Part shown: positions 3,043 to 61,810 of the stretch, piece after piece
How the letters are laid out: each line of letters begins with the position of its first letter
Numbering within the stretch: the stretch's first letter is position 1
NCBI RefSeq assembly: GCF_002007105.1
Contig: NZ_MVBC01000022.1
Location: forward strand, 1-64,000
Source: Hymenobacter sp. CRA2
GTDB taxonomy: Bacteria; Bacteroidota; Bacteroidia; Cytophagales; Hymenobacteraceae
Length of the DNA stretch: 64,000 nt
Direction of reading: 5' to 3'
The notes under the pieces: model-generated
What the model saw: the letters and a program-made list of their open reading frames with translations, nothing else
Told to the model about the DNA's origin: nothing
The model's database searches: none
Position numbers and translations under genes: made by a program

Positions 3043-3110
3043 AGTAATACAGGGAGCAGGTTTGGAAGTTGCTGGGCATAATCAACTCCAAACCTGCTCC
3101 CTGTATTACT
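3043..3110 (-). terminator. 24-bp perfect inverted repeat containing the DUF2027-Smr stop codon
   Basis: 3043-3066 and 3087-3110 are perfect reverse complements (24 bp) with a 20-nt loop. The right arm contains the TAA stop of the minus-strand DUF2027-Smr gene (3106-3108). On the minus strand the stem is followed by ATTTTGG, a weak T-run. The simplest reading is a strong terminator for that gene, separating it from the AT-rich islet. Confidence 0.7.
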
Positions 3111-31070: not shown

Positions 31071-31087
31071 TAAAAGTGTTAGTGTGC

Positions 31088-31133
31088 ATCAACGACAAGG
31101 CCCGCACCAGATGGCGCGGGCCTTGTCGTTGAT
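31088..31133. terminator. 18-bp perfect hairpin between convergent phhA and the PIDGG protein gene
   Basis: 31088-31105 and 31116-31133 are perfect reverse complements with a 10-nt loop. It lies 18 bases after the phhA stop and 16 before the end of the opposing gene. A bidirectional terminator is likely, although T-runs are absent. Confidence 0.75.
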
Positions 31134-31149
31134 GGAAGAGCCGGAGAGG

Positions 31150-39238: not shown

Positions 39239-40564
39239 CTAGGCCGGTAGTGCGTGGTAAGCCGCTTTGAAGGCGGCCAGCGCCCGCTCGCGGGCAAACT
39301 TGTGCTCTACCATTGGGGGCGGATAAGCGGCCGTGCCCAGCTCGGGCAGCCAGCGGCGTACGTACTCGCCCGTGGGGTCGAACTGCTTCAGCTGAGAGTC
39401 GGGACTGAACACCCGAAACCACGGCGCGGCCACCACACCGGTGCCGGCTACCCATTGCCAGTTACCCACGTTCAGGGCCAGGTCGTAGTCGAGCAGCCGC
39501 TCGGCGAAGTACCGCTCGCCCCAACGCCAATCGATGAGTAGGTGCTTGACCAGGAAGCTGGCCGCGGCAATACGGGCGCGGTTGGGCAGGTAGCCCGTCT
39601 GGTTCAGTTCCCGCATGCCCGCGTCGATGAGCGGATAACCGGTGCGCCCCTCGCACCAGCACCGAAACTCGGTTTCGTCGTTGCGGAAAGCCACGCCGCG
39701 CAGCCGGGGCTCGAAGCTTTCCTCGGGCAGCTGCGGGTAGCGCCAGAACAGCATCATGAAATAGTCGCGCCAGATCAGCTCGGCCAGCAGCTTGGGGTTG
39801 AGCGTCTGGGCCTGCTGCATCAGCTCGCGCACGCTCAGGGTGCCGAAGCGCAGGTGCACCGAGCGCCGCGTACTGCTATCTACGGCCAGCCCCAACTGGT
39901 CGCGGGTGGTGTGGTAGCCGCGTACCAGCTGCTCGGCGGGCAGCTCACTGGCCGGCACGTACTGCTCGCACCGCTTGAAGCCCATCTGCGCCAGCGTCGG
40001 GCGTGCCGGGGCCGCCGGCCACTGCCCCAGGTGCGGCGCCCGAAACAGCTCAGCGGAAGGGTAGGGGCGCAGGTGCTCCGGCCGCAGGGCGGCCAGCCAC
40101 GCGTCGCGGTAAGGGCCGAATGCCCGGTGCGCCGTGCCGGATTTGGTCAGCACTTCGGTCTTGGCGAAAATGACTTGGTCCTTCAGCGCATGAAACGCCA
40201 CGCCGCGGGCCTGGCAGAGCTGGGCCACGGCCTCGTCGCGGCGGGTGGCGCAGGGTTCGTAGTCCTCGTTGGTGAAGACGGCCGCCACGTCGAGCTGCGC
40301 CAGCAACTGCGCGAATACCTCCGCCGGGCGGCCATAATACGCCAAGAAAGTACCGCCAGCCGCGGCCGTCTCGCGGGCCAGCCCTTCCACTTGGTCATGG
40401 ATAAAGGTTAGACGCGCGTCGTGCGGACGCGGCAGGTGGTCGAGGATATCGGTGTCGTAGATAAACAGCGGCAGCACGGGCAGGCCACTTTGCAGCGCGG
40501 CGGCAAGGCCGGCGTTGTCGTGCCGGCGCAGGTCGCGCCGGTGCCAGAACAGGGCTACGGGCAT
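39239..40564 (-). CDS. phrB: Deoxyribodipyrimidine photolyase (cryptochrome/photolyase family)
   Basis: I choose the ATG at 40564 (MPVALFWHRRDLRRHDN, the standard photolyase start); the frame opens 15 codons earlier inside an intergenic repeat. The 441-aa product has the N-terminal antenna domain (LPVLPLFIYDTDIL) and the FAD domain (RSVHLRFGTLSVRELM, ELIWRDYFMMLFWRYPQ, WCEGRTGYPLIDAGMRELNQTGYLPNR, AASFLVKHLLIDWRWGERYFAERLLDYDLALNVGNWQWVAG in pieces). It repairs UV-induced pyrimidine dimers with blue light. The gene follows an SDR gene with an 85-base gap that carries a paired-arm repeat. Confidence 0.94.
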   Translation of the reverse strand: MPVALFWHRRDLRRHDNAGLAAALQSGLPVLPLFIYDTDILDHLPRPHDARLTFIHDQVEGLARETAAAGGTFLAYYGRPAEVFAQLLAQLDVAAVFTNEDYEPCATRRDEAVAQLCQARGVAFHALKDQVIFAKTEVLTKSGTAHRAFGPYRDAWLAALRPEHLRPYPSAELFRAPHLGQWPAAPARPTLAQMGFKRCEQYVPASELPAEQLVRGYHTTRDQLGLAVDSSTRRSVHLRFGTLSVRELMQQAQTLNPKLLAELIWRDYFMMLFWRYPQLPEESFEPRLRGVAFRNDETEFRCWCEGRTGYPLIDAGMRELNQTGYLPNRARIAAASFLVKHLLIDWRWGERYFAERLLDYDLALNVGNWQWVAGTGVVAAPWFRVFSPDSQLKQFDPTGEYVRRWLPELGTAAYPPPMVEHKFARERALAAFKAAYHALPA

Positions 40565-40652
40565 AGGATATGAGGGTAGGAGTAGGTGAGGATAGGGATT
40601 ATCGTTCATTGGACAACTCCTAAACTCTTACCCTCTCCAACTCTTAAACTTA
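40565..40652. repeat. Paired-arm intergenic element between SDR stop and photolyase start
   Basis: Read on the minus strand, the SDR stop is TAA and is followed at once by GTTTAAGAGTTGGAGAGGGT. An arm of opposite polarity (CCTCACCTACTCCTACCCTC) runs up to the photolyase ATG. GAGGGTA in the first arm is matched by TACCCTC in the second. The arms are reiterations of short GAGT/ACTC words. Confidence 0.6.
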
Positions 40653-41363
40653 TTTAAGGGTAGAGTACCCGCCATCGACGCGGATTATCTGGCCGGTGAT
40701 GAAACCAGCAGCGTCGGACAGCAAAAACGCGGCGGTTTCGGCCAGGTCCTGCGGCTGGCCCACGCGCTGCAGCGGGTGACGCTTGGCCCCAGCTTCCTGC
40801 TTTTCGGGCGTGTTCAGCAAGGCAGTGGCCAGCGGGGTATCGGTGAGGGAGGGCGCCAGGGCATTGACGCGGATGCCGCTGCCCGCGTACTCGGCGGCCA
40901 ACGAGCGGGTGAGGCCTTCCAGGGCGGCTTTGGCTGCCGCAATGCTAGCGTGAAAGGGCATACCGTTGTAGGCGGCTACGGTGCTGAACAGCACCACCGA
41001 AGCGCCGCCGGCTTTTTTGAGGCGCTTCATCACGGCCTGCAGCACCTGCACGGCGCCCACCACGTTCAGCTCAAAGTCCTGCCGAAACTGCTCGGCACCC
41101 AGCCGCTCAAACGGCCGCAGCAGAATGGAGCCCGGGCAGTACACCACGCCGTGCAGCACCTCCGGCAGGGCCTCCAGCGTAGCGGCGCTGAACTGCGTCA
41201 CGTCCAGTTCAAGGTGCTGAGCTCCAAGGGCGGCCAGCTCCGGGGAACGGCGGCGCGAAGCCGTAATCAGGGTGGCGCCGGCCGCGTGCAGCCGCTGCGC
41301 CGTGGCCAGGCCGATGCCGGACGAGGCGCCGACGACAAGAATGGTTTTGCCGGAAAAGTCCAT
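40650..41363 (-). CDS. SDR-family oxidoreductase lacking the canonical Tyr
   Basis: A 237-aa Rossmann protein with GASSGIG (residues 11-17), the cofactor-binding signature, and ITGQIIRVDGGYS at the end. The catalytic Ser region is LFSTVAAYNG. At the position of the YxxxK pair the sequence is HASIAAAK, so the Lys is present but the Tyr is Ile. This subgroup (FHAS-AAAK) is one I recall from other bacteria near photolyases, so it is probably a real family rather than a damaged gene. Activity as a classical dehydrogenase is doubtful. It precedes the photolyase on the same strand. Confidence 0.87.
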   Translation of the reverse strand: MDFSGKTILVVGASSGIGLATAQRLHAAGATLITASRRRSPELAALGAQHLELDVTQFSAATLEALPEVLHGVVYCPGSILLRPFERLGAEQFRQDFELNVVGAVQVLQAVMKRLKKAGGASVVLFSTVAAYNGMPFHASIAAAKAALEGLTRSLAAEYAGSGIRVNALAPSLTDTPLATALLNTPEKQEAGAKRHPLQRVGQPQDLAETAAFLLSDAAGFITGQIIRVDGGYSTLK

Positions 41364-58387: not shown

Positions 58388-58537
58388 GGGCAGGGTAGGA
58401 GTTTGCGAGGGTAGAAGTTTAAGAGTTATAGTAGGTAAGCAAGGGTGAATGGACAGGTATTAAAGCATGACGAAAGGTACAGTCAAAGCCCAATTCCTTA
58501 ACTCATTAACTCCAAAACTGATTAATTCTTAAACTCA
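58388..58537. repeat. Paired-arm intergenic element between response-regulator stop and kinase start
   Basis: On the minus strand the regulator stop reads TGA followed by GTTTAAGAATTAATC, then GGAGTTAATGAGTTAAGG. The opposite arm carries AACTCTTAAACTT (58427-58415) and CTCCTACCCTG and stops at the kinase ATG. AGTTTAAGAATT (58535-58524) is matched at 11 of 12 bases by AACTCTTAAACT. Confidence 0.6.
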
Positions 58538-60956: not shown

Positions 60957-61697
60957 ATGAAGTTTCTCGTTTGCATTAGCAACGTCCCGGACACGACGAC
61001 CAAAATTACGTTTACCCCGGATAATAAGGAGTTTAACAAGGCGGGCGTGCAGTTCGTCATCAACCCTTGGGATGAGTATGCACTCACTCGCGCCATTGAG
61101 CTGAAAGAAGCTCAGGGCAGCGGTTCGGTGACCGTGCTCAACGTCGGCGAAGCCGATACCGAGCCCAACATCCGCAAGGCCCTGGCCATCGGGGCCGACG
61201 ACGCCATCCGCGTCAACGCAGCCCCGAAGGACGCTTGGTTTGTAGCCCAGCAGATTGCTCACTACGCCAAGGAAGGTGGCTACGACGTCATCCTGATGGG
61301 CAAAGAAAGCATCGACTACAACGGCTTCCAGGTGCACGGCATGGTGGGCGAGCTGCTCGGCATCCCGACGGTGGCCCCGGCCATGAAGCTGGACATGAGC
61401 GGCAACACCGCCACGCTGGAGCGCGAAATCGAAGGCGGCAAGGAAATCGTGGAGGTGAACACCCCCTTCGTGGCCTCCTGCCAGCAGCCGATGTGCGAGC
61501 CCCGCATCCCGAACATGCGCGGCATCATGACGGCCCGCACCAAGCCGCTGAAAGTGGTAGAAGCCGTAGGCGAAGGCGCTGCCACTTCGGTAGCCGAGTA
61601 CGCGTTGCCGCCCAAAAAGCAGGGCGTGAAGCTCATCCCGGCCGAAAACGCCGGCGAGTTGATCAAGCTGCTGCGCAACGAAGCCAAAGTTATCTAG
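60957..61697 (+). CDS. etfB: Electron transfer flavoprotein beta subunit
   Basis: A 246-aa subunit starting MKFLVCISNVPDTTTKI. It shows the ETF beta pattern: INPWDEYALTRAIELKE, ILMGKESIDYNGFQVHGMVGELLG (signature loop) and EPRIPNMRGIMTARTKPLKV. It binds AMP and forms ETF with EtfA, passing electrons from acyl-CoA dehydrogenases to the quinone pool. The stop TAG runs straight into a paired-arm repeat that separates it from etfA. Confidence 0.96.
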   Translation: MKFLVCISNVPDTTTKITFTPDNKEFNKAGVQFVINPWDEYALTRAIELKEAQGSGSVTVLNVGEADTEPNIRKALAIGADDAIRVNAAPKDAWFVAQQIAHYAKEGGYDVILMGKESIDYNGFQVHGMVGELLGIPTVAPAMKLDMSGNTATLEREIEGGKEIVEVNTPFVASCQQPMCEPRIPNMRGIMTARTKPLKVVEAVGEGAATSVAEYALPPKKQGVKLIPAENAGELIKLLRNEAKVI

Positions 61698-61810
61698 TTT
61701 AAGAGTTTATGGGTTTGTGAGTTAATGAGTTATGCAGATCATACTCATTGCTCTTCCGCCCATATCCCTCCTTAACTCTTAAACTCCCTCAACTCTCAAA
61801 CTCAAACAGC
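61695..61810. repeat. Paired-arm intergenic element between etfB stop and etfA start
   Basis: The left arm begins in the etfB stop (TAG) and reads GTTTAAGAGTT (61697-61707), then GGGTTTGTGAGTTAATGAGT. The right arm reads AACTCTTAAAC (61774-61784), CCTCAACTCTCAAACTCAAA, and stops 2-3 bases before the etfA ATG. The 11-base cores are perfect reverse complements. Confidence 0.75.

Follow-up and report, generated by a model that had tools for sequence, protein, structure and literature searches.

To our knowledge, bacterial heptamer repeats have long been noticed without gaining an accepted origin or role. Two of the described systems are close precedents for the element considered here. The first is the set of intergenic heptameric repeats treated by Rehm et al. 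2015 (PMC4692102), who, in the passages on these words, give GGGAATC for Xanthomonas and GGGGAYT for Nostoc. The second is the P6b stem of the Nostoc tRNA-Leu intron, for which the pertinent sections of Kaasalainen et al. 2015 (PMC4476775) distinguish Class I (TDNGATT) and Class II (NNTGAGT) repeats. Also related are the TAACTGA direct repeats that the corresponding part of MacGregor 2015 (PMC4679880) places in Beggiatoaceae, cyanobacteria and five Bacteroidetes, and the REP and REPIN palindromes with RAYT transposases covered in Bertels and Rainey 2011 (PMC3116915), a GTAG or CGTC tag being named as a core feature of REP sequences in a portion of PMC3733652. That slippage makes heptamers abundant has been proposed in sections of two of these papers (PMC4679880, PMC4692102).

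No paper on facing word-arrays in Hymenobacter was found in the open-licence literature. In Hymenobacter sp. CRA2, two facing arrays of a degenerate octamer occupy the gap between an SDR-family gene and a photolyase gene, within a 64,000-nucleotide stretch of DNA (contig NZ_MVBC01000022.1, positions 1 to 64,000) that was analyzed as a whole and is called the window below. Palindromic heptamer/octamer word-arrays form a class in which the word changes quickly at fixed junctions, and this element is one of them. It is a short intergenic DNA palindrome, of a type about 85-150 bp long, with two facing arms in each of which an 8-nt word recurs 3-6 times in degenerate form; the class is genus-wide, with a word that is mostly 7 nt, sometimes 8, and varies from element to element. 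The usual location is the gap between gene ends, mostly of co-directional genes, so that the arms adjoin stop and start codons.

Anatomy of the SDR-photolyase element

The whole intergenic element runs from the SDR stop to the photolyase ATG (40565..40649, minus strand; direct reading and RNA fold). It is flanked by the SDR-family gene (40650..41363, minus; Pfam adh_short_C2, 6.1e-51) and the photolyase gene (39239..40564, minus; Pfam FAD_binding_7, 8.1e-67, and DNA_photolyase, 1.4e-39, on a 456-aa ORF; start by a homemade gene caller). By direct reading, the stop-side arm (40614..40649, minus) consists of the degenerate octamers GTTTAAGA GTTGGAGA GGGTAAGA GTTTAGGA and a terminal GTTG, with the unit consensus GAGTTNNN / GAGGGTNN. 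The start-side arm (40572..40595, plus) faces it and reads GAGGGTAG GAGTAGGT GAGGATAG on the plus strand, and a spacer or loop (40596..40613) separates the two. As an earlier note on this DNA had reported, the SDR stop TAA (40650-40652, minus) is followed directly by GTTTAAGAGTTGGAGAGGG (40649 down to 40631), which begins with GTTTAAGA (40642-40649, minus); this 19-mer occurs once in the genome. The same note had the second arm reaching the photolyase ATG (40562-40564), a detail that needs correcting, as the start-side arm, CCTCACCTACTCCTACCCTC, stops 7 nt short of it. The RNA fold of 40565-40652 has an energy of -25.8 kcal/mol (z -3.07), and none of 200 shuffles was equally low.

The longest photolyase ORF starts at 40609, inside the element, and would translate the start-side arm; the likely start is 40564, where the homemade gene caller places it. 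Automatic annotation may render the right arm (40565-40609, minus) as an N-terminal extension of the photolyase. As 40609 illustrates, arms of this kind can lead start-codon prediction astray. An intrinsic terminator, with a GC-rich stem and a T run, was considered and rejected by reading: the element has no T run, the arm at 40572-40595 being followed by ATATCCT and the ATG.

Two further elements of this type lie in the window. One fills the gap from a response-regulator stop to a histidine-kinase start (58388..58534; genes by Pfam) and has a six-unit octamer run at 58492-58536, although its fold (58388-58537) has a z of only -1.68. The other extends from the ETF beta stop (61695-61697) to the ETF alpha start (61811), at 61698..61810, with a six-unit octamer run at 61687-61731 and a fold z of -6.00. 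The window holds five copies of GTTTAAGA against a shuffle mean of 0.65, a count of five being reached by none of 100 shuffles, and three of the five begin 0, 0 and -1 nt from the stops of the SDR, response-regulator and ETF beta genes. The proposal that one element type stands at three unrelated gene pairs, far above chance, is borne out by these counts. At gathering score, an Rfam 15 scan of the window gave 0 matches, and a tRNA scan of it found no tRNA. These elements are also absent from the list of an inverted-repeat finder run on the window, since their arms are too degenerate. Elsewhere in the window, a long intergenic region contains a perfect inverted repeat of 24 bp whose halves lie 20 nt apart (3043-3110), and a 23-bp inverted repeat, 96% complementary with a 2-nt spacer, is found directly downstream of a called gene (31087-31134).

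Word-arrays in the genome and in relatives

Genome-wide totals are given only for patterns that were searched; other counts for this genome come from a sample made up of the window and 800 kb of one contig (C11:1-800000). The pattern GTTTAAGAGTT has 19 copies in the genome (backward control 0); reading them out reveals GAGTTNNN runs on one side of the gap, reverse-complement runs on the other and a spacer between, some copies, such as L004, having just one clear arm. The three-unit GAGTTNNN pattern GAGTTNNNGAGTTNNNGAGTT gives 40 overlapping genome matches and a second octamer word, GGTGANNT in three copies, gives 20, with backward controls of 0 for both. A core scan allowing one mismatch found nine arrays in C11:1-800000 and two in the window; four of five control cores gave 0, and the fifth, TGAGT, gave 3 and 1 but coincides in part with the true core, shifted by one base. 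Lag autocorrelation over 564 intergenic regions of the sample, with one shuffle per region, is in excess mainly at lag 7 (10 vs 0 shuffled) and lag 8 (12 vs 2), the remaining lags from 5 to 15 giving 0-3, and the top regions contain, by eye, more words (among them AGAAGTG, GAGTATT, GAAGGAT and GGTAGTC). Facing C-poor arms occur in 36 of 413 gaps of 60-300 nt, some of them non-periodic by eye. A looser periodic test on the same gaps returned 16 with period 7 and 28 with period 8 (shuffled 2 and 1), and 8, 6, 4 and 8 with periods 6, 9, 10 and 11.

Across 753 gaps (60-300 nt) at 16 conserved junctions, facing periodic arms have period 7 in 62 and period 8 in 17 (shuffled 0), periods 5 and 9 once each, and periods 6, 10 and 11 never. 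They occur in 78/497 co-directional, 1/77 convergent and 0/179 divergent gaps. Strict co-directionality is nevertheless rejected: the bias is strong over the 16 orthologous junctions and weak in the window's genome, where period 8 is found in 21/279 co-directional vs 7/134 other gaps and period 7 in 14/279 vs 2/134.

At the SDR-photolyase junction, 10 loci were read, one of them the window, and 7 of these contain the SDR motif; L208, L209 and L214 are the three in which it was not found. Octamer-type arms are present in the window, G001, G002 and G004, and have drifted together (e.g., left GAGGGCAGGCGTGTAAGCGTTA and, on the opposite strand, right GAGGGCAGGCGTGTAAGAGTTA in G002). Heptamer arms occupy the junction in G005 and G006, and in G007 it reads TAG CT ATG, a 2-nt gap.

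A scan with the ETF beta protein supplied 80 named loci, which with the window make 81; the title is Solirubrum for one of the 80 and Hymenobacter or Hymenobacteraceae for the other 79. As one junction thus offers 81 natural states in which architecture and position stay, the question of origin and role becomes testable. The gap from the ETF beta stop to the ETF alpha start measures 93-189 nt in 80 of the 81 loci and 25 nt in L144, which has lost the element; a gap length so nearly constant suggests that something is selected there. Judged against 50 mononucleotide shuffles per gap, the inverted-arm score reaches a z of at least 3 in 74 of 80 gaps. Period 7 fits best in 62 of the 80, period 8 in 12 and another period in 6, and the mean lag-7 match is 0.487 vs 0.266 shuffled. 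The window's gap is octameric (lag 8 0.58 vs lag 7 0.40); clear octamers are seen here (0.58) and in L182 (0.51), several other period-8 gaps being REP-like palindromes of weak periodicity (0.32-0.38). In six loci of other genera (L103, L106, L107, L110, L113 and L114), 2-4 nt separate the ETF genes; this reading covered plus-strand matches, about half of 30 rows having an unrelated frame and being left out.

Word labels for the 81 gaps, assigned from consensus words chosen by eye, are the R1 palindrome TGTCATGCTGACGAAGG.. (14), AATTAAK (13), GARCTTA (12), GAATTAW (12), GAGTTAW (6), GAGAHRT (6), GARGAAT (5), TTGGTTK (4), GTTGARK (3), GAGTTNNN (2), the R2 palindrome (2), unclear (1) and none (1). 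With R1, R2 and none left out, the left and right arms are best for one word in 56 of 64 gaps. A dispersed REP-like palindrome, TGTCATGCTGACGAAGGAAGCATC..., lies at the junction in 14 loci (L141, L142, L143, L147, L149, L161, L164, L171, L180, L187, L190, L192, L193 and L194), and all 14 queries have off-site copies. The 189-nt gap of L189 contains two tandem copies of the entire palindrome, pointing to duplication of the whole element.

Placed on a tree built from the flanking ETF coding DNA of all 81 rows, the labels require 50 changes, against a least possible 12 and a shuffled mean of 57.5, and 0 of 200 shuffles were equally low. When 11 uncertain rows are dropped (L124, L134, L135, L139, L153, L160, L162, L172, L174, L186 and L188), the 70 confident rows need 43 changes (least 11, shuffled mean 48.8, 1 of 200 shuffles equally low). 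The labels are slightly clustered by descent on this tree and not random. Among sister pairs with confident labels, 12 of 19 differ, including L158 and L159, whose summed branch is 0.045. The word turns over between sister species, and the arms change together. The window's closest row is H. gummosus, at 93% identity over ETF coding DNA. In this species (L122), junctions (1,2) and (4,6) both carry a GGGTCTTGGGGGCTTA-type word, an instance of word sharing inside one genome.

Likeness between gaps may extend to the whole element, even in distant species that carry the same word. L130 and L158 share 84% of the gap, loop included, vs 80% of the compared coding DNA, and the L197 gap resembles an off-site stretch, L188:5328-5420, across arms and loop (77% over 97 nt). 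As far as such alignments reveal it, this whole-gap likeness looks like a pool of palindromes common to the species. Identity beside the gap does not clearly rise in species sharing an allele (the similarity threshold, 0.62, is loose, since the 99th percentile for gaps with different labels is higher, at 0.669; the L184 row is apparently out of register), and exchange via long recombination tracts is unsupported without such a rise. The GAGTT pattern was found in 15 of 58 relatives, with counts that differ widely between them, and the GAATTAT array (at most two mismatches) in 25 of 58 and not in the window's genome; backward controls matched in five genomes in each case. Near-perfect tandem GAATTAT reaches high counts in other families, in G049 (93) and G054 (106), and G051 has homogeneous GAGTTNAT arrays. 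The arrays are perfect in G049, G054 and G051 and degenerate in the window's group.

Origin and upkeep of the palindromes

We favor the reading, at a probability of about one half, that the element is a palindrome of facing arrays shaped by slippage, arm copying and occasional replacement, with any mRNA effect as a by-product. Polymerase slippage in 7-8 nt steps would grow the arrays and change the word, copying between the arms within the palindrome during replication would hold both to one word, and now and then another palindrome, drawn from a common pool, may take the place of the whole element. An effect on the mRNA, if any, would be a by-product or a secondary use. A single base separates word D (GAGTTAT) from word F (GAATTAT), almost all units of the two arms carry the change, and L163, L196 and L200 are mixed intermediates; read in this way, the change from D to F shows units and arms changing together. 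The 11 D/F alleles share a 34-pair stem that is 92.0% paired. In this stem, both partners have changed in 10 pairs, where shuffling gives 5.6 on average and 2 of 500 shuffles reach 10, and covariation is 0.233 vs 0.141 shuffled (0 of 500), falling to 0.095 or less when slid. Covariation of the arms is clear in these alleles, the sole group tested. Taken alone, arm covariation would falsely point to a structured regulatory RNA.

The simplest form of arm copying, in register, was not supported by either of two tests. It should mirror the order of units between the arms, so a mean z of only 0.19 (s.e. 0.08) in a permutation test on 163 elements counts against it. Arm identity is 0.737 inside an element and 0.786 when same-word elements from other genomes are compared, the former being the higher in 26 of 72. 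For same-word elements of a single genome the figures are 0.736 and 0.756, and the within-element value is the higher in 14 of 37. Out-of-register copying between the arms would fit both the weak mirroring and the arm-identity result. Slippage gives no account of the common word found at many loci of a genome, and the near-constant length of the ETF gap, with the selection it suggests, also counts against the favored reading. Neither an insertion mechanism nor, by eye, a target duplication was found.

A possible alternative, which we consider somewhat unlikely, is a functional intercistronic hairpin in the mRNA, in which a stable stem would be selected for mRNA stability or translation insulation, the word would be indifferent and palindromes would be interchangeable. 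Such a hairpin would account for the ETF gap kept in 80 of 81 loci, for the inverted arms in 74 of 80, for stable folds (e.g., -57.3 kcal/mol, z -12.7, for L158), for arm covariation in the D/F alleles and for the co-directional bias, although the basis of that bias is the 16 junctions, the window's own genome showing it weakly, and L144 does without the element. Against the hairpin stands a comparison of mismatched pairs, on the premise that strand-symmetric mutation yields G.U and A.C equally and that selection on RNA pairing favors G.U. It covered 914 co-directional gaps, 456 of them with an inverted repeat score of at least 12, related copies being counted together. In mRNA sense, 174 periodic elements have 275 G.U and 263 A.C pairs (p 0.64), vs 306 and 216 in 282 non-periodic inverted repeats (p 9e-5). 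The G.U to A.C ratio remains near parity in subsets of the periodic elements (177:162 for period 7, 98:101 for period 8, 49:45 at the ETF site and 45:38 in the window's own genome), and the non-periodic repeats divide into REP-like palindromes (92:82) and remaining hairpins (214:134). Bootstrap ranges for the G.U fraction are 0.469-0.558 for periodic elements vs 0.550-0.624 for non-periodic inverted repeats; the D/F set alone, with 16 G.U and 10 A.C, is too small to decide. The lack of a G.U excess over A.C speaks for origin and upkeep at the level of DNA rather than for selection acting on a hairpin in the mRNA. Such a comparison is a sequence-only route to separate palindromes kept as DNA from hairpins kept as RNA.

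Less plausible still are non-autonomous mobile palindromes of REPIN- or MITE-like type, spread by an enzyme, with the words as subfamilies. Sharing of one word by many loci of a genome would be expected of them, as would the off-site match of the L197 gap, the off-site matches of all 14 R1 palindromes, the tandem doubling in L189 and the occurrence of the SDR-photolyase junction both filled and as a 2-nt site. Against them, the Y1 transposase family (PF01797) has no match in the window's genome (the control search was positive in 5 of 14), copies differ in unit order, unlike recent copies of one master, and no target duplication was seen by eye. It is also conceivable, if quite improbable, that an active palindrome-writing system installs facing arrays of an arbitrary 7-8-nt word at operon junctions and keeps both arms on the same word, perhaps through a dedicated polymerase or short-tract exchange; a palindrome would then persist at the junction even as a cross-species pool supplied it with new sequence.

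The earlier note had suggested that GTTTAAGA exceeds its background at stop codons. The excess is real in 864 kb of this genome (the window and C11:1-800000, with 668 called genes), where 17 copies occur, 13 of them intergenic, and five begin in the range -8..+12 around a stop on their own strand, where uniform placement predicts 0.14, an expectation that overstates the surprise because it ignores the mostly intergenic location of the word; the other 12 lie outside that range of any same-strand stop. A sequence-specific stop-codon signal for termination, readthrough or re-initiation, which that excess would fit, is largely refuted and scarcely credible, given those 12 copies, a mirror arm that adjoins start codons and the unrelated words that relatives carry after the stop at the same junctions. 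The word is not tied to stop codons; because paired, facing octamer arrays occupy the gap, the upstream stop has one arm directly beside it and the downstream start has the second within a few bases.

Comparison with known systems

The palindrome of facing arrays that we favor resembles REPINs, as portrayed in part of Bertels and Rainey 2011 (PMC3116915), in being a dispersed extragenic palindrome of about the same size. In REPINs the REP sequence is fixed and the genome carries a RAYT, whereas here the words change; membership in the REPIN/RAYT family is not supported, since the window's genome yielded no cognate Y1 transposase. The TAACTGA repeats (PMC4679880) are likewise intergenic heptamer arrays near gene starts, with an irregular phylogenetic spread that includes Bacteroidetes. 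According to the relevant sections of that report, they differ in being direct, of single orientation and of one word, the main genome having 169 direct sets vs one inverted repeat.

The Xanthomonas and Nostoc heptamers, so far as the account in PMC4692102 describes them, are a close precedent. They too are degenerate intergenic heptamer arrays, mostly between same-direction genes, they recur at shared gene pairs of two Xanthomonas while varying greatly in sequence, and an inverted arrangement is mentioned and slippage proposed. That account concerns one G-rich word per organism, studied as a quadruplex, whereas here there are many words per genome, facing arms are the rule and the word changes wholesale at one orthologous junction. 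A tandem 7-nt unit in intergenic DNA, as in heptameric STRR-type repeats, is found at class level in 62 of 80 ETF gaps, the STRR-type label resting on the heptamer members; the window copy itself was rejected as a heptamer repeat, being octameric, and works like one.

The Nostoc trnL P6b stem offers a parallel in behavior. In the treatment of it in PMC4476775, a stem of complementary 7-nt repeats has had one word class swapped for another repeatedly at a given site, in a pattern that does not follow phylogeny, and the ETF junction likewise combines facing complementary short repeats with class replacement at one site. Identity with P6b was rejected, as the window has no tRNA-Leu intron, tRNA or Rfam match. 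P6b belongs to a group I intron and has two classes, whereas the arrays described here occupy gaps between protein genes, with about ten classes at one junction and with many junctions.
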